From a virus, in the IMG/VR virus record IMGVR_UViG_3300047546_001056, positions 1-35,356 of that record: DNA of 35,356 nt; one strand, written 5' to 3'. A program made the position numbers and the translations under genes. This document shows positions 2,905 to 16,895 of the stretch, one piece after another (position 1 is the first letter of the stretch; every line of letters starts with the position of its first letter). The notes below the pieces were generated by a model. The model worked only from the letters and a program-made list of their open reading frames with translations. It searched no databases and was not told the DNA's origin.

Positions 2905-4149
2905 TTAGGCTGCAACGCGGCAAGACAGTTCAGGATACAGCGGCGCCCATCCGTACAGCACATCCAAACGGGTCGGAATGCTGTCGTTGTTGATGGTGTA
3001 CTGGCGAACCACACGGATCGACAGGCCCAGGTCTTTGTCGGACGCACGGCCAGCGAAATGCACACCGTCAGGCAGTTCAAGGTCAGCGGTCGCAAGCGTG
3101 AACGCATTGCGGTGCATGATGATGTTCTGCGGCGACACGGTGCCGGTGTTGTTGAACGGCGTAACCGCAGCGGTGGCGCTGGTGCTGGTCACAACCACGT
3201 TTTGGAATTGACCGCCGGTGATGATGGCGGGCGAAACCGTCACGGAAGTGCCGGGCGTGGTCGCAACGTTGGTGGTGCTGGTGACCACGAAGTTGCGAAG
3301 TTTGCCGGAACCGTAGGCGCTGCGGTTCTGCGGGTTGACCGCATACACGCCAGCGATTTGGATCACATCGCCTTGTTGCAGGGTCAGGCCGGACGATGCC
3401 ACCAGGGTGATGGTGGAAGTCTGTGCCCAACCGGTGGCGATGCCGAAACCGGCAGCAGTCGTGTCCACGGTCATGGTCTTGCCGCTGTACGAACCAAAGG
3501 TTTGGTTCACCACGTTCTGATCCATGTACCAGTTCATGCCGGCGGAATCGCGGCCCATCAGACCCTTGCGGTACTGCTGGCCAATGACTTCGGCAGGAAC
3601 GAACAGACCTTTGAGGCTGTCAACGATGGTGGCGGAAGTGAACGGCTCGATCACGCAAGAACGGCGGCCATCACGCGGGGCGCCTTCAGCGTCCAGGTAT
3701 GCGCCAGCGGTCAGGTAAGTGATCAGACCAGTGGGCGGAACGCCAGCCGTACCAACGATGTTGGCGGTGTTGTTCTTGGCCATCGTCAGACCGTCATAGT
3801 CGATCTTGTTGGCAATCGCGGCCACGGCCGGCTTGAGAATGCGGTCGCTGAAAGCGTCCAGGCTCAGTGCCAGGTCTTGGGTCGTGAATTGGGTGTCAAC
3901 GTGGAATTGCGTGGACAGGGTGACAGGCACGCTAGTTTCGTTGAAATCTTCAACGTTCAGGGCGGGGCCGGTCGTACCGATGAAGCGGCCAGGGCGGCGA
4001 ACGTTCAGGGTGTTGCCGATCTTGGCGCCAGTGACGGCGAATTGGTCATCGTATTCACGGGTGACCTCGTTGGTGAACGTAAGTTCGTTTTCCAGGACCA
4101 TCAACGCTTCGTTGGTGATCTTGGAAATGGTAAGCAAATTATTGGCCAT
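2905..4149 (-). CDS. Major coat protein, P22 gp5-like
   Basis: The 414-residue protein is close to the size of P22 coat (about 430). The N terminus MANNLLTISKITNEALMVLE, the VRRPGRFI segment and the STQFHVDTQFTTQDLALSLD segment are typical of the P22_CoatProtein family. It forms the icosahedral T=7-type shell around the scaffold. The middle (about residues 240-340) is rich in Val, Thr and Ser and probably holds an inserted beta domain. The gene follows scaffold by 28 bases and has a strong ribosome site AAGGAAACCAAA. It is likely transcribed at high level from the promoter at 5226-5198. Confidence 0.93.
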   Translation of the reverse strand: MANNLLTISKITNEALMVLENELTFTNEVTREYDDQFAVTGAKIGNTLNVRRPGRFIGTTGPALNVEDFNETSVPVTLSTQFHVDTQFTTQDLALSLDAFSDRILKPAVAAIANKIDYDGLTMAKNNTANIVGTAGVPPTGLITYLTAGAYLDAEGAPRDGRRSCVIEPFTSATIVDSLKGLFVPAEVIGQQYRKGLMGRDSAGMNWYMDQNVVNQTFGSYSGKTMTVDTTAAGFGIATGWAQTSTITLVASSGLTLQQGDVIQIAGVYAVNPQNRSAYGSGKLRNFVVTSTTNVATTPGTSVTVSPAIITGGQFQNVVVTSTSATAAVTPFNNTGTVSPQNIIMHRNAFTLATADLELPDGVHFAGRASDKDLGLSIRVVRQYTINNDSIPTRLDVLYGWAPLYPELSCRVAA

Positions 4150-4177: not shown

Positions 4178-5146
4178 TCAGCGAATCTTACGGGCCTGTC
4201 GTGCGGCTTTCCACTGCTGATAAGTCCCGTGGAAGTTCCCATCGGAATCCACGTTGTTTTCAACGGTCGAAACAGCCCCACGAATGGGCGTAATCGGCGC
4301 TGGCGCTTTTGATTTCGCAACGGTCGATTTGCTTTCCGGTTCGCTTGCCGCCGGCGCCCTGTCGGGTGCCTTTTCGAAGCGGGCTTCCAATTTTCCAATC
4401 TCACGAAGGGCGGAAATGACGGATTTCTTGCCCAATTCCTGGGCAAATTCGGGATTTTCGGCCAGGTAATACAGGATTTTTGGTCCCACATCACTTTCCA
4501 TGATCGCATCGCGCACGGGGTCCGAAACGGCCACATCGCTTGATTGGATCATGTCGTCGAAATCGGGCAGTTCCTGACGCGCTTTATCCACCTTTTGCGC
4601 CCAATTTTGCTCAAACTGTGCGCGGGCTTCCTGGGCTTTGCGTTCAGATTCCGCCTTATCCCTCTCCATCAACTTTTTGTCAGCGGTATATTCGGCCAAC
4701 GCTTTCGCGTATTCGAACATATCGTTGAATTCTTCCGGCTTGGGTTCCGGTCCAATGGCGTCCGGCTCGGCTTGTGCCGCCTTCGGATTGGCCTTTGCTT
4801 CCAGTTCCTTCAGCCTGGCTTCCAGGGCTTCCCTCGCTTCGCGTTCTTTACGGGCTTCTTCCCGTGCGGCTTCGCGTTGCTTGGTTATCTCTGAAAACCG
4901 CCTTTCGATCTTCGGATTTGGCTTGCGTTCCTTCTGCTCACCTTCCGTTGTTGCCTCATTCCCTTCCCCGTCCGGTCCACTCTGACCGCCTTCGGTGTCC
5001 GGCTCTGCATCGGCCTGTGCATCAGGCTCGGCAGCCGCGGGTTCCGCTGGCTTCGAATCAACTAGACCCATCTTACGGGCGGTGAATTCCGCTAAATTGT
5101 CACTTGTCACCACATTTGCGGCAACTCGTTCCTGCACTTCCGACAT
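4178..5146 (-). CDS. Scaffolding protein, P22 gp8-like
   Basis: The protein is 322 residues, similar to P22 scaffold (303). The first half is acidic and Pro/Glu/Asp rich. Then a charged coiled coil (about 85-125) is full of EAREEARKEREA-type heptads. The C terminus is basic (QQWKAARQARKIR), as expected for the helix-turn-helix that docks on coat. I chose the second ATG (5146) because TAGGG lies six bases upstream; the ATG at 5152 has no spaced ribosome site. It sits between portal and coat, the P22 order, and directs procapsid assembly before leaving the head. Confidence 0.88.
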   Translation of the reverse strand: MSEVQERVAANVVTSDNLAEFTARKMGLVDSKPAEPAAAEPDAQADAEPDTEGGQSGPDGEGNEATTEGEQKERKPNPKIERRFSEITKQREAAREEARKEREAREALEARLKELEAKANPKAAQAEPDAIGPEPKPEEFNDMFEYAKALAEYTADKKLMERDKAESERKAQEARAQFEQNWAQKVDKARQELPDFDDMIQSSDVAVSDPVRDAIMESDVGPKILYYLAENPEFAQELGKKSVISALREIGKLEARFEKAPDRAPAASEPESKSTVAKSKAPAPITPIRGAVSTVENNVDSDGNFHGTYQQWKAARQARKIR

Positions 5147-5197
5147 AGGCATCCCTACGAATTAACCCAATGCAAACCCATTGGTAGGCTTTGGCTT

Positions 5198-5226
5198 ATT
5201 GTCAAGCCCGCTTTTGTCATTGTCAA
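5198..5226 (-). promoter_or_regulatory. Sigma70-like promoter for the scaffold-coat unit with embedded operator-like dyad
   Basis: On the minus strand TTGACA (5226-5221) is followed by a 17-base spacer and GACAAT (5203-5198). The spacer holds AAAAGCGGGCTTGA (5215-5202), close to the dyad TTAAGCnnGCTTAA found at all three early promoters. The promoter begins three bases after the portal stop and lies about 50 bases before the scaffold start. The -10 box matches consensus at four of six bases. Confidence 0.7.
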
Positions 5227-5228
5227 TA

Positions 5229-7445
5229 CTATTGCACGACATTCATTGGCTGGCCTTCGGCGCCTGGTTGCGGGGGCATTGCAACCTGTTGCGGCACTTG
5301 CGGCGGGGTCATATTGGCCATTACGCCCTGGATTCCCTGGGTAAATGGGCTGGACCCTTCGTGAATATCGCTTGCAGCAATATCGGCAAAAGCATATTGT
5401 TCGGCGTTCATGCGGGCAATCATGCGGGCCAGTTCGTCCGGCGGCATATTAGCCAACAGCAATTTGACGATGGCTTCGATTTCCATCTTGTTTTGGCTGG
5501 TGATCGACCTGGTGTTCTGATCGTTGACCCGCACTTCAGCCATCGTTTCAGTGTTGTGGGCCTTGGCCATCGACCGCATGAGTTCGCGCTTGGTTTCGCC
5601 ATCCTGTTTGATGGATTCGACCGTGCCTTTGTACTTAATGTCCAGGCCCATCGCGGCCATTTGGTTCTGCTGATCCTGCACAGTCTTTTGCAACTGCATG
5701 ATCATCATTTGGACCTTGGGCGGAATCTCGGATTTCTCGTCAATCTGCGCCAGCGGATTCATGGCGGCCAGGCGGTCGGCAATCACATCAGCGCCGGGGA
5801 AATCCATGTTGCGGAACATCAGGTCGCCAGCAACCTGAAACACCTCGTTTTGGGCCATCAGCGGCAGCATGGCTTCGACGGCTTGCTGGCGCTTGCTGTT
5901 GTAGCCTGGGCCGGTGTCCATCACCACATCGTATTCGCCCACGGTGACGTTGTTCAGGACTTCGCCGGTGGCTTGCATATCGTTGACGGTCACCATGTCG
6001 GGCTTGCCGTCCACACCGATGATTCGCAACACGCGCTGCGTATCGTAAATCTTGGGGATCAGGTCCAGGATGATTTTGCCCGTGTGCTTGATGCTTCGGG
6101 TCATGTTGTCGTAGAAGTGGAAATTCGACAAATCCACCTGGTTCTGTTGGCCCATCAACGCCTTGCCGGACATATTGCCTGGCAGTTGTTGTGACGGGTC
6201 GAAAATGCCCATCACGGTCTGAAGGTCGTTGTTCACTTCGGCCGCGGCTTCCATGATACCCACGGGCGGCGGCTCGGGCTGCAACCTGGTGGGCACCGGC
6301 GCCTGTTCGCCGTTAATGTCGCGCTGTTTGTAGCGCAGCACGGGCGTGGACTTGATGTTGGCCAGCGCCCAATCGTTTTCGTGGCCTTCGTCCTGACCTT
6401 CGGCCAACAGCCATTTGGCCTTGGGGGCCAGGGCGATGGATTCGGTCATACTGGTGCGCCAAAAGTTATACATCCGCTGCGGGTCTTTGGCGAACCGCAC
6501 CAGGCCGTATTTCTTGCGCTTGCCTTCGATCACCACCTGAGCGCCGTAGCACGGCACAATGGGAATCCAGCGGCCAGGCCATTCCTTTTCTTCCAGGATT
6601 TGCATGGCGGTCAACTTGCACCATTTGACCTTGCGGCGCCATGTCTTGCGGCGGTCCACTTCAATGATGCCGGCTTCGTCCATCACTTCCTTGGGCGGCA
6701 GTTTGTCGGCGTACACCTTGGTGCCGTCCGACAGCATCACCAGTTCGGCTTTCTCGCGGACCACATAGAAAAATTCGGCAACGCGAATGTCCTCTTTCGT
6801 GACCCATTCCGCGGTGTCATCACCTGTGGCCCTGGGCAAAAATCCCACGCCATCGTCGGCGCCTGGGTACATTTGGCGAAACCGGTCTTTGGACATGACC
6901 GTGGTGATCAGGCACTTTTCGGCATCCGATCCATCAGGTGACACGCTGTTCGGGTCAAAGTACACGCCAAACGGGTTGTCAATGGGTTCGATGAAAATTT
7001 CCTGATCGAACGAATCTTCCCGCACATAGTCCGTGATGACGCGCCAGTAACCCCAACCCATGCGGACGGCGTAATCAAACGCGGTGTCGTAGGCGGTGTC
7101 AGCGTTGGAATTGACTTCGATATGGCGGGTGATGCCTTCGATCACCTGGGCCACCTTCAGGTCACCTTCGTTGTTGACCGGATGAACCTTGATGCGGGGG
7201 CGCTGCTGGCGCTGCTGGTTCGTGACCTGGCGAATGTAGGGGTCCAGTTTGTTGATCGTCAGACACGGCCGCGCTTCGATGTTGCGGCTGTTTTGAATCT
7301 CGACCGGCCACTGATCGCCCGCGGCGAATTTCAGGTCTTGCAACCCTTCCTGGCGGTTATTCGAATCCGCTTCACCCACCAGTTTCAGGAATTTGATGGC
7401 ATCCTGAATGCGTGGATCGCTTGATTGGTCTTGGTAATCTGACAT
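5229..7445 (-). CDS. Portal protein, P22 gp1-like
   Basis: The protein is 738 residues (P22 portal is 725). The N-terminal part GDQWPVEIQNSR...RPCLTINKLDPYIRQVTNQQRQQRP is characteristic of the P22-type portal family. The segment AFDYAVRMGWGYWRVITDY is also typical, and the C-terminal 150 residues are helical and Gln/Met rich, as in the long P22 barrel. It forms the dodecameric DNA channel at one head vertex, docking terminase and later the gp4-like ring. It follows the large terminase gene by 21 bases with ribosome site AAAAAGGGGCG. A Pro/Gln-rich tail (QQVAMPPQPG) ends the protein. Confidence 0.94.
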   Translation of the reverse strand: MSDYQDQSSDPRIQDAIKFLKLVGEADSNNRQEGLQDLKFAAGDQWPVEIQNSRNIEARPCLTINKLDPYIRQVTNQQRQQRPRIKVHPVNNEGDLKVAQVIEGITRHIEVNSNADTAYDTAFDYAVRMGWGYWRVITDYVREDSFDQEIFIEPIDNPFGVYFDPNSVSPDGSDAEKCLITTVMSKDRFRQMYPGADDGVGFLPRATGDDTAEWVTKEDIRVAEFFYVVREKAELVMLSDGTKVYADKLPPKEVMDEAGIIEVDRRKTWRRKVKWCKLTAMQILEEKEWPGRWIPIVPCYGAQVVIEGKRKKYGLVRFAKDPQRMYNFWRTSMTESIALAPKAKWLLAEGQDEGHENDWALANIKSTPVLRYKQRDINGEQAPVPTRLQPEPPPVGIMEAAAEVNNDLQTVMGIFDPSQQLPGNMSGKALMGQQNQVDLSNFHFYDNMTRSIKHTGKIILDLIPKIYDTQRVLRIIGVDGKPDMVTVNDMQATGEVLNNVTVGEYDVVMDTGPGYNSKRQQAVEAMLPLMAQNEVFQVAGDLMFRNMDFPGADVIADRLAAMNPLAQIDEKSEIPPKVQMMIMQLQKTVQDQQNQMAAMGLDIKYKGTVESIKQDGETKRELMRSMAKAHNTETMAEVRVNDQNTRSITSQNKMEIEAIVKLLLANMPPDELARMIARMNAEQYAFADIAASDIHEGSSPFTQGIQGVMANMTPPQVPQQVAMPPQPGAEGQPMNVVQ

Positions 7446-11173: not shown

Positions 11174-11348
11174 CAGGCAACTCCCCACGCTTGACGCCAT
11201 CATTCAGCGCCTTGGCAAAGTTTTCCGCCAGGCGGTCAGAATCGGACTGATGCTGACGATTGGCCCGATGTTCAGCGGGCGTAATCGGCGGTTCCGCGGT
11301 AGATGGCGTCACTGATGGCGCCGGATTTTTTGGCTCGTTCAAGGGCAT
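11166..11348 (-). CDS. Hypothetical small protein (60 aa)
   Basis: A 60-residue protein with a Pro-rich N terminus and a C-terminal helix (DSDRLAENFAKALNDGVKRG). A good ribosome site AGGAAAGGA lies seven bases before the ATG. The first 77 bases overlap the 3' end of the kinase-like gene in another frame. No recognised family. Confidence 0.6.
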   Translation of the reverse strand: MPLNEPKNPAPSVTPSTAEPPITPAEHRANRQHQSDSDRLAENFAKALNDGVKRGELPGV

Positions 11349-12168
11349 CGCGTAATCCTTTCCTCACTTCATTTTCGTTAAGTTTGGGCAACTTGTCAAG
11401 CCGGCTTACCATAGCATTGCCTGGTCCGCGGCTGTTGTCGATCACGCGAATCTGTACCTTGTCGTTCTTTTTGTACTTGGCCGCCAACTGCTCGATAACC
11501 TGGCGGGCGCCCATGTGTGTCCGTGCGTGTTCAGACAGTGGGACGGTGCGGCCGGTGCCGCGTTCTTCCTCCATGCGTTTGGCCCGCTTCAGTGCCCCGT
11601 TCTCCAGCGCTTCCACAGGGTCGCGGTAGGTGTACAGGATGCTGACCTTGCGGCCGGCGTCCAGGGCTTGCCTGATCTTTTTGTCGGCCGATTCAAAGGA
11701 ATTCATGTTGGTGTCGTACACCATTTCGGCCTTGGCGGCTTTGGGGTCCACCTTTTTCACGATTTCCAAACCGGTGGTCTTGCCAGCCCCGGTTCCGCCC
11801 GCGGTGAAGATGACCACGGGTTCGCGCCCCTGCGGGGTGGGGGCGGCAAGTTTCTCGGCGTACAGGCGTTTGACAAACGCGCTGGATGGTTCGTGAACGT
11901 CCGCGGACCTGGTGCGGTCAGCGCGGTAATGCTCGGACAGTTCCCTGGCCACATCCGTGTTCAAGGTTCGGCCTTCGTCCGATTCGGCCAGTTGGGCGTA
12001 TTGTTGCGCCAGCCCCGGATAGTCGTTTTGCAGCCGTGCAAAGTATTCCTGCTCAATCGGGTTTACCGGTTGATCGCCCATTTGTGGCTGCGGGGCAAGC
12101 GCCGAAAGCCGGTTCCCGACCGGCATTGCACCTGGTCCCGCCGCCATTGCTGACAGCGGGGTGGCCAT
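11272..12168 (-). CDS. Zeta-toxin-like P-loop kinase domain protein (298 aa)
   Basis: After a Pro/Gln/Met-rich N terminus (1-40) and a helical region, a P-loop ATP/GTP-binding motif reads FTAGGTGAGKTT (residues 121-132). It is followed by VYDTNMNSFESADKKIRQAL and VSILYTYRDPVEALENGALKRA. This order (strand-P-loop-helix, an Asp/Asn substrate strand, then a lid rich in Arg) fits the zeta-toxin/PezT kinase family, which phosphorylates UDP-activated sugars. No antitoxin of the epsilon type is adjacent. The ATG overlaps the upstream stop as TAATG. It might modify host metabolism, act as an exclusion factor, or be a virion-associated kinase. The family call is by motif, not search. Confidence 0.72.
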   Translation of the reverse strand: MATPLSAMAAGPGAMPVGNRLSALAPQPQMGDQPVNPIEQEYFARLQNDYPGLAQQYAQLAESDEGRTLNTDVARELSEHYRADRTRSADVHEPSSAFVKRLYAEKLAAPTPQGREPVVIFTAGGTGAGKTTGLEIVKKVDPKAAKAEMVYDTNMNSFESADKKIRQALDAGRKVSILYTYRDPVEALENGALKRAKRMEEERGTGRTVPLSEHARTHMGARQVIEQLAAKYKKNDKVQIRVIDNSRGPGNAMVSRLDKLPKLNENEVRKGLRDALERAKKSGAISDAIYRGTADYAR

Positions 12169-15699: not shown

Positions 15700-15858
15700 C
15701 TAGCCCTTAAACCATTTCGGACGCAACGCCTTCAACTGCCACACCCGTGCCTGGGGAACCTTCGCGCCCCATTGGCTCACCGCGGCCCGCGTGATGCCTA
15801 GCAACTTCGCCAATGCACTTGCGGACCCCGCCAGTTTGATTGCCTGTTCTTTGTCCAT
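15700..15858 (-). CDS. Cro-like helix-turn-helix regulator (52 aa)
   Basis: The product starts MDKEQAIKLAGSASALAKLL and continues GITRAAVSQWGAKVPQARVW, then ends LKALRPKWFKG. The helix-turn-helix ASALAKLLGITRAAVSQWG closely follows the P22 Cro family (RAVAKALGISDAAVSQWK in P22 Cro). It is the first gene of the leftward block and faces the rightward operon across 158 bases holding both promoters and three operator-like dyads. It probably represses both. A second in-frame ATG lies one codon upstream (15861). The predicted transcription start falls at or within a few bases of these codons and no ribosome site exists, so translation may be leaderless. No CI-type gene is present. Confidence 0.85.
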   Translation of the reverse strand: MDKEQAIKLAGSASALAKLLGITRAAVSQWGAKVPQARVWQLKALRPKWFKG

Positions 15859-15864
15859 CATCGG

Positions 15865-15893
15865 ATGTTAAGCGGCCTTGCGATGTGTGTCAA
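15865..15893 (-). promoter_or_regulatory. Leftward early promoter (cro-replication operon)
   Basis: On the minus strand TTGACA (15893-15888), 17-base spacer, TAACAT (15870-15865). The -10 overlaps the dyad at 15868-15881. Counting seven bases from the -10 puts the start of transcription at about 15858, the A of the regulator's ATG. It is the analogue of lambda PR, since cro, O-like, P-like and nin-like genes follow. Confidence 0.85.
15868..15881. promoter_or_regulatory. Operator-like dyad in the leftward promoter
   Basis: TTAAGCGGCCTTGC, an imperfect match to TTAAGCnnGCTTAA. With its flank, the minus-strand string GCAAGGCCGCTTAACAT differs at only three central bases from GCAAGCGGGCTTAACAT in the rightward promoter. 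Binding would block the -10 box. Confidence 0.65.
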
Positions 15894-15938: not shown

Positions 15939-15967
15939 TTGACGCCAGGCGCAAGCGGGCTTAACAT
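15939..15967 (+). promoter_or_regulatory. Rightward early promoter with operator-like dyad
   Basis: TTGACG (15939-15944), 17-base spacer, TAACAT (15962-15967). The dyad GCAAGCGGGCTTAA at 15951-15964 overlaps the spacer and -10. The predicted start is near 15974, the A of an ATGCCCTAG. It drives the LPD29 gene and the rightward operon, as PL does in lambda. Confidence 0.85.
15951..15964. promoter_or_regulatory. Operator-like dyad in the rightward promoter
   Basis: GCAAGCGGGCTTAA contains the ten-base dyad AAGCGGGCTT (AAGC-GG-GCTT), with one half matching GCTTAA exactly. Its placement over spacer and -10 matches that at the other three promoters. Confidence 0.7.
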
Positions 15968-16016
15968 TCAGTCATGCCCTAGCGAATTGCACGGGGTCTT
16001 TTGAAAGGAAACAGAA

Positions 16017-16859: not shown

Positions 16860-16895
16860 ATGCCCTTACGGGTCTATCAAGAAAGGAAATTGTGA
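16860..16895 (+). other. Possible leaderless 11-codon upstream ORF
   Basis: ATG at 16860 lies at the predicted transcription start and encodes MPLRVYQERKL before TGA. That stop overlaps the next gene's ATG as TGATG, so a leaderless ribosome could feed into gene 16895-17101. The transcript of the first promoter starts with ATGCCCTAG at the equivalent place. Expression is unproven. Confidence 0.35.

Follow-up and report, generated by a model that had tools for sequence, protein, structure and literature searches.

A promoter-like hexamer pair and a predicted leader pseudoknot precede the scaffold gene in many P22-type phages

What does the promoter-like sequence between the portal and scaffold genes of a P22-type phage do, and does it answer to the regulator of the early genes? 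We examined this locus in an IMG/VR virus record, linear and 35,356 bases long, referred to here in its entirety as the window; among its annotated relatives, a P22-coat phage from Manatee Spring is the closest. From 15.9 kb leftwards the genes run in one direction, in the order Cro-like gene, terminase, portal, scaffold, coat. The genes of concern are the following.

5229..7445, minus strand: portal gene (PF16510 P22_portal, E 3.3e-178), upstream of the element
4178..5146, minus strand: scaffold gene, 322 aa (PHROG 8865 head scaffolding protein, E 1e-34)
2905..4149, minus strand: major head (coat) gene, P22 type (PHROG 283, E 1.3e-74)
15703..15861 (end coordinate approximate), minus strand: gene for a P22_Cro-like regulator, 53 aa (PF14549, E 4.6e-14)

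Another in-frame ATG, at 5152 (minus strand), precedes the assigned scaffold start by 6 nt (ATGCCTATG); the start at 5146 is favoured by relatives. The comparison drew on portal relatives in viral contigs. Two portal relatives occur in cellular contigs, both of them MAG contigs, with the labels Burkholderiales and beta proteobacterium.

The initial annotation placed a TTGACA-17-GACAAT promoter right after the portal stop, ahead of the scaffold and coat genes, and this description holds. The hexamers are present on the minus strand (5226-5198), upstream of the scaffold ATG (5146) and separated by the 17-nt spacer atgacaaaagcgggctt.

5221..5226, minus strand: -35 hexamer TTGACA, 3 nt past the portal ORF end at 5229; conserved in relatives
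5198..5203, minus strand: -10 hexamer GACAAT, after a 17-nt spacer; conserved in relatives
5204..5213, minus strand: early-operator-like dyad AAGCGGGCTT, at this place in the window phage only
5193..5208, minus strand: H1, GGCTT-GACAAT-AAGCC, an inverted repeat that flanks the -10; relatives keep the pairing while the sequences differ
5190..5192, minus strand: expected (inferred) region of the transcription start, some 7 nt past the -10 and immediately 5' of the pseudoknot described below

Comparison shows the hexamer pair to be kept family-wide: a promoter-like pair is found in 126 of 172 distinct upstream regions, against 12.2 (sd 2.8) in shuffles. A sigma-70-type promoter has its hexamers 16-18 nt apart, and the window pair, with its 17-nt spacer at a place conserved in relatives, agrees with this. 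The Vibrio/Shewanella group has other hexamers (GTGACT or GTGACA, then TATCAT or similar) at unchanged spacing. Because the distance from the -10 to S1, the first pseudoknot stem, is mostly 8 nt among the distinct upstreams, the scaffold mRNA should begin approximately 0-2 nt before S1. Exceptions are L037-L040, in which this distance is only 2 nt, so that a transcript from that promoter would lose S1, and L363 (a MAG contig labelled Burkholderiales; 5600-5730), in which no TTGACA promoter was seen and in which H1 (GGGC-AAAA-GCCC), the pseudoknot and the start-site hairpin H3 are kept. An intrinsic terminator was considered for this region and rejected; the sole candidate, a weak stem on the plus strand (5193-5208), is H1 itself.

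The case for regulation by the early repressor was built on the dyad. AAGCGGGCTT at 5213-5204 is identical to the core at 15953-15962 and, as the initial annotation had pointed out, it adjoins the -10 just as the dyads of the early promoters do (15939(+), 16824(+) and 15893(-)). The Cro-like regulator invoked there is indeed encoded, as a P22_Cro-family protein to which the early operators presumably belong. This operator class is conserved in the early promoters of relatives, and 31 of their operators served to train a matrix. The dyad at the scaffold promoter is a fair match to this matrix: it scores 12.8 at 5203 (symmetrised), rank 5 in the window, with the weakest early site of the window at 12.4, and first-order Markov genomes contain 0.1 (sd 0.3) sites that score as well. 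A matrix scan had been suggested at the outset as a check on the dyad; in this one, coding DNA holds equal or better matches at 11397 (16.8) and 9242 (12.7). The rank is only 10th when the site is read as an oriented 14-column operator, and a plain search allowing up to 3 mismatches gave matches no more numerous than in shuffles. The letters after the dyad are CTTA in 31/31 training sites and in the three early promoter sites of the window, and CTTG at the scaffold promoter.

The early promoters and their operators provided further observations. The predicted start of the rightward early transcripts (15975-16010 and 16863-16890, plus strand) falls on or close to an AUG, after which come a small hairpin and a boxA-like UCUUU; the stretch reads ATGCCCTAG...GGGGTCTTTT in the window and ATGCCCTAACGGGTCTTTTA and ATGCCGGAAACGGTCTTTTA in relatives, and the arrangement could represent a nut-like site or a minimal ORF. 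On the minus strand (15858-15893), only some 7 nt separate the -10 (TAACAT) from the start of the Cro-like gene, which makes a leaderless mRNA probable; this layout recurs in L006, L015, L094, L105, L125 and L194. The strongest operator match outside the early region, the one at 11397, lies inside a 284-aa ORF (11272-12126, minus strand; Pfam Zeta_toxin, E 3.8e-14) and adjoins a TTGACA-17-GAAAAT at 11399.

Could the P22_Cro-like protein bind AAGCGGGCTT in the scaffold promoter and repress the scaffold-coat genes together with the early genes? The shared 10-mer, its equal position relative to the -10, the above-chance matrix score and the presence of the protein all speak for this reading. Against it stand the CTTG in place of a uniform CTTA, the matches in coding DNA and the relatives: AAGNNNNCTT is at the scaffold promoter in 0/13 relatives whose fetched DNA has both early operators and the scaffold promoter (in all, 14 loci have both promoter kinds, and the dyad is at the scaffold promoter in the window only), and a search of 162 distinct upstreams again found it in the window only. 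The dyad is thus ruled out as a conserved feature of the scaffold promoter. Its GGGCTT half, moreover, is accounted for by H1, the conserved inverted repeat whose arms flank the -10. Because the relatives lack the dyad there and the inverted repeat explains GGGCTT, the model originally put forward, in which one regulator couples early genes and capsid output, would at best be peculiar to the window phage, and we consider Cro repression of this promoter unlikely. H1 itself is another candidate for a regulatory element, either as a DNA operator or as a read-through hairpin that would decide between upstream and local transcripts. It occurs in 92/172 upstreams, against 32 (sd 5) in shuffles; its mean stem score is 5.97, against 4.66 (sd 0.14) with arms swapped between sequences; its forms in relatives include GGGTT-GACAAT-AACCC, GTGGT-AAAA-ACCAC and GGGC-TATATT-GCCC; and it persists in the promoterless L363. 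However, the Vibrio/Shewanella/Thalassomonas group and some members of the window's own group lack H1, and its statistics are weaker than those of the pseudoknot, which makes such a role for H1 quite improbable in our judgement. Its retention in L363 suggests a further role in read-through RNA. What was striking at first sight was therefore partly an arm of another conserved structure, and the feature that matters more is found some 30 nt farther downstream than the dyad.

An alignment of 68 distinct intergenic regions revealed that the promoter is conserved together with a structured leader. The leader element has the form of an H-type pseudoknot, with an S1 of 3 bp, a UA loop 1, an S2 of 6 bp and a loop 3 of 1-6 nt, and is followed by a linker and a hairpin at the scaffold start.

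5187..5189, minus strand: S1 5' strand GCC of the pseudoknot; covariation
5185..5186, minus strand: loop 1, UA; fixed in the search definition, and also UA in portal-fetched relatives, read by eye
5179..5184, minus strand: S2 5' strand CCAAUG of the pseudoknot; covariation
5176..5178, minus strand: S1 3' strand GGU, pairing with GCC (G-U, C-G, C-G)
5173..5175, minus strand: loop 3, UUG; 1-6 nt in relatives
5167..5172, minus strand: S2 3' strand CAUUGG of the pseudoknot; covariation
5159..5166, minus strand: single-stranded linker GUUAAUUC, containing the word AAUUC; conserved in relatives
5146..5157, minus strand: H3 hairpin UAGG-GAUG-CCUA; contains the Shine-Dalgarno sequence and the start-codon A

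RNAalifold analysis of 72 leaders gave a covarying hairpin, one pair of which is A-U in 45 leaders, G-C in 16, C-G in 8 and U-A in 3, and is never broken. This hairpin is S2 alone, yet S1 covaries as strongly, so a nested hairpin as the only structure was rejected. S1 was recognised in the distant phages, where the trinucleotide preceding UA pairs with the one that follows the S2 5' strand. We defined the element by its conserved words (UA, C[C/T], [A/G]GG and AAT[T/C]C-like), complementarity not being required, and found it in 265 places and 100 distinct forms; L217 is a chance match in another P22-like gene. For S1, the test set comprised 62 distinct forms that align gaplessly up to the second S1 strand. 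Paired cells make up 96.8% of S1, where shuffles give 62.3% (sd 2.7), and covariation is 0.916 against 0.262 (sd 0.035). Both stems taken together, in 48 distinct forms, are 96.3% paired against 71.7% (sd 1.4), with covariation of 0.668 against 0.192. No shuffle of 500 reached the observed values in either test, a significance that is overstated because the sequences are related; controls in which the S1 partner was slid, which are free of that fault, gave pairing of at most 61%. S1 takes at least ten Watson-Crick forms (ACC/GGU, CCU/AGG, GCU/AGC, AGC/GCU and GGC/GCC among them, and further CCG/CGG, CAC/GUG, CGC/GCG, CUU/AAG and CCC/GGG); 64 loci were fetched by a DNA pattern that fixes the outer S2 bases and part of S1, and the loci that supply most of the remaining S1 forms were retrieved with the portal protein as query. 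Comparative analysis thus supports well the prediction that S1 and S2 cross as an H-type pseudoknot.

The start-site hairpin is supported by comparison in the same manner. An H3 stem of at least 4 bp encloses or brackets the Shine-Dalgarno sequence in 43 of 48 distinct variants, with a mean of 4.15 bp against 2.19 (sd 0.20) when halves are swapped, and its forms include UAGG/CCUA, UUGAG/CUCAA, UGGA/UCCA, CGUA/UACG, CGUAUA/UAUACG and CGCG/CGCG. For most of the window's group, pairing ends at the A of the AUG. A conserved switch between a 5' CCUA and the Shine-Dalgarno UAGG was considered and rejected; it was seen by eye in part of the window's group and is not found in the Vibrio/Shewanella group. 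The leader also does not correspond to a known RNA family: at E up to 1, Rfam gave no match to the window region, and five relatives had none at the gathering threshold. A nucleotide search of the leader against annotated phages gave nothing useful.

The element is tied to the scaffold gene. In 257 of the 265 places the downstream ORF matches the window scaffold at E<1e-5; the remaining eight ORFs comprise seven whose beginning resembles scaffold, mostly truncated at a contig end, and the chance match. A covariance model (R1), for which 26 leaders were used, has a single hit in each of 73/95 sources and a single hit in the window; a second copy elsewhere was considered and rejected on these results. 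Phages of Vibrio, Shewanella and Thalassomonas, at approximately 38% portal identity, carry the pseudoknot element, the distant phages BA3, X14, FGH and VvAW1 being among those that have it. In P22-like SPN9CC the element is absent, the short portal-scaffold intergenic region having neither promoter nor pseudoknot. EBPR podovirus 1 retains a UGGA-GCCA-UCCA hairpin. In L016 (12211-12672), about 0.4 kb, probably a small gene, separates the portal stop from the leader element, which still precedes scaffold. Xanthomonas phage PBR31 (L208 3480-3620) and Pseudomonas phage PAE2 (L225 3600-3700) have a GC-rich terminator-like repeat and a T run between portal and scaffold and retain only the start-site hairpin, UGGA-GNRA-UCCA, after that repeat; the repeat may be another way of separating portal from scaffold expression.

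We consider it on balance probable that scaffold has a dedicated promoter and a translational feedback leader similar to that of T4 gene 32, with scaffold as the first candidate binder. A host-type promoter at the portal stop would make scaffold-coat mRNA apart from the long upstream transcript, and the separate mRNA would yield many scaffold and coat subunits per portal. Capsids contain few portal subunits, which extra scaffold/coat mRNA over portal mRNA would fit. This mRNA would carry, in order, the 5' H-type pseudoknot, the conserved A/U-rich linker and the hairpin covering the Shine-Dalgarno sequence and AUG of scaffold. H3 alone (4 bp) may be too short to close the start site; most likely, a phage protein would bind the pseudoknot and linker and keep the site closed when free scaffold is in excess. 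The T4 gene 32 analogy and the self-limitation of P22 scaffold make scaffold itself the first candidate for this protein; a solved-structure search with scaffold found no solved relative. The loss of S1 from the predicted L037-L040 transcript, the missing TTGACA promoter of L363 and the lack of the element in SPN9CC count against this explanation. Alternatively, the 5'-terminal pseudoknot could act without a regulator, as a structural cap that slows mRNA decay or as a ribosome landing site, with the scaffold-coat mRNA long-lived and well translated. The spacing from the -10 to S1, which sets the pseudoknot at the extreme 5' end, would suit such a cap, as would stem sequences that vary freely while pairing is kept, but a cap leaves unexplained the conserved AAUUC linker, the start-site hairpin of nearly all variants and the strict restriction to the scaffold gene, and we think it possible but rather doubtful. 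The broader form of the feedback proposal, a family-wide pseudoknot operator for scaffold translation in P22-type phages of aquatic bacteria, is put forward tentatively, as somewhat short of an even chance.

Several known systems bear on these proposals. As in lambda and P22, a P22_Cro-family regulator goes with dyad operators within divergent early promoters, in the window and in relatives; unlike those operators, the copy at the scaffold promoter is not conserved. In P22-like phages, Q antitermination activates the late genes (PMC2629481). The initial annotation's contrast with lambda and P22 survives as a difference of layout; as for the antiterminator itself, those window proteins that were scanned against PHROGs include neither a Q nor an N homologue. 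Several proteins of the window are without a family, NinB is encoded, and a divergent Q is possible. A pseudoknot is also part of the E. coli rpsO (S15) translational operator (PMC3014915), there in a bacterial ribosomal protein gene.

The closest parallel is the T4 gene 32 leader, in which a 5'-terminal pseudoknot and a UUAAA-rich segment with the ribosome site are bound by the gene's own product (PMC535899, PMC3014915). In T4, T2 and RB69 gene 32, as here, an H-type pseudoknot stands 5' in a phage leader, an A/U-rich segment with UUAA-like words and the ribosome site follow, and the downstream protein is needed in large amounts. Here, however, the gene encodes a capsid scaffold rather than an ssDNA-binding protein, and the scaffold leader has a 3-bp S1, lies much nearer the start codon, has an added start-site hairpin and shows wide covariation. 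With scaffold as the downstream gene and no Rfam match, we found no homology to the gene 32 leader or gene, and by analogy the scaffold leader may work like gene 32 without being a member of its family. The kind of phage leader pseudoknot is thus already known and the gene is new; we know of no leader pseudoknot in a scaffold gene.

P22 scaffold limits its own synthesis, and the control is post-transcriptional; feedback by this scaffolding protein (gp8) on its own synthesis was reportedly described by King, Hall and Casjens in 1978 and by Wyckoff and Casjens in 1985. The phages studied here share with P22 the scaffold gene in portal-scaffold-coat order, for which P22 has this post-transcriptional control. 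P22-like SPN9CC, unlike them, lacks the scaffold promoter and pseudoknot, so P22 scaffold feedback must use something else. If the proposal is correct, the leader would be a candidate cis-acting site for scaffold feedback and the second viral pseudoknot for translational autoregulation after that of T4 gene 32. This second candidate, in another gene, has covariation over dozens of distinct variants, which include those of gammaproteobacterial phages, several of them isolates whose host is named. Simple leader mutants would make it possible to test a long-standing question, namely how assembly of the capsid feeds back on the synthesis of scaffold.
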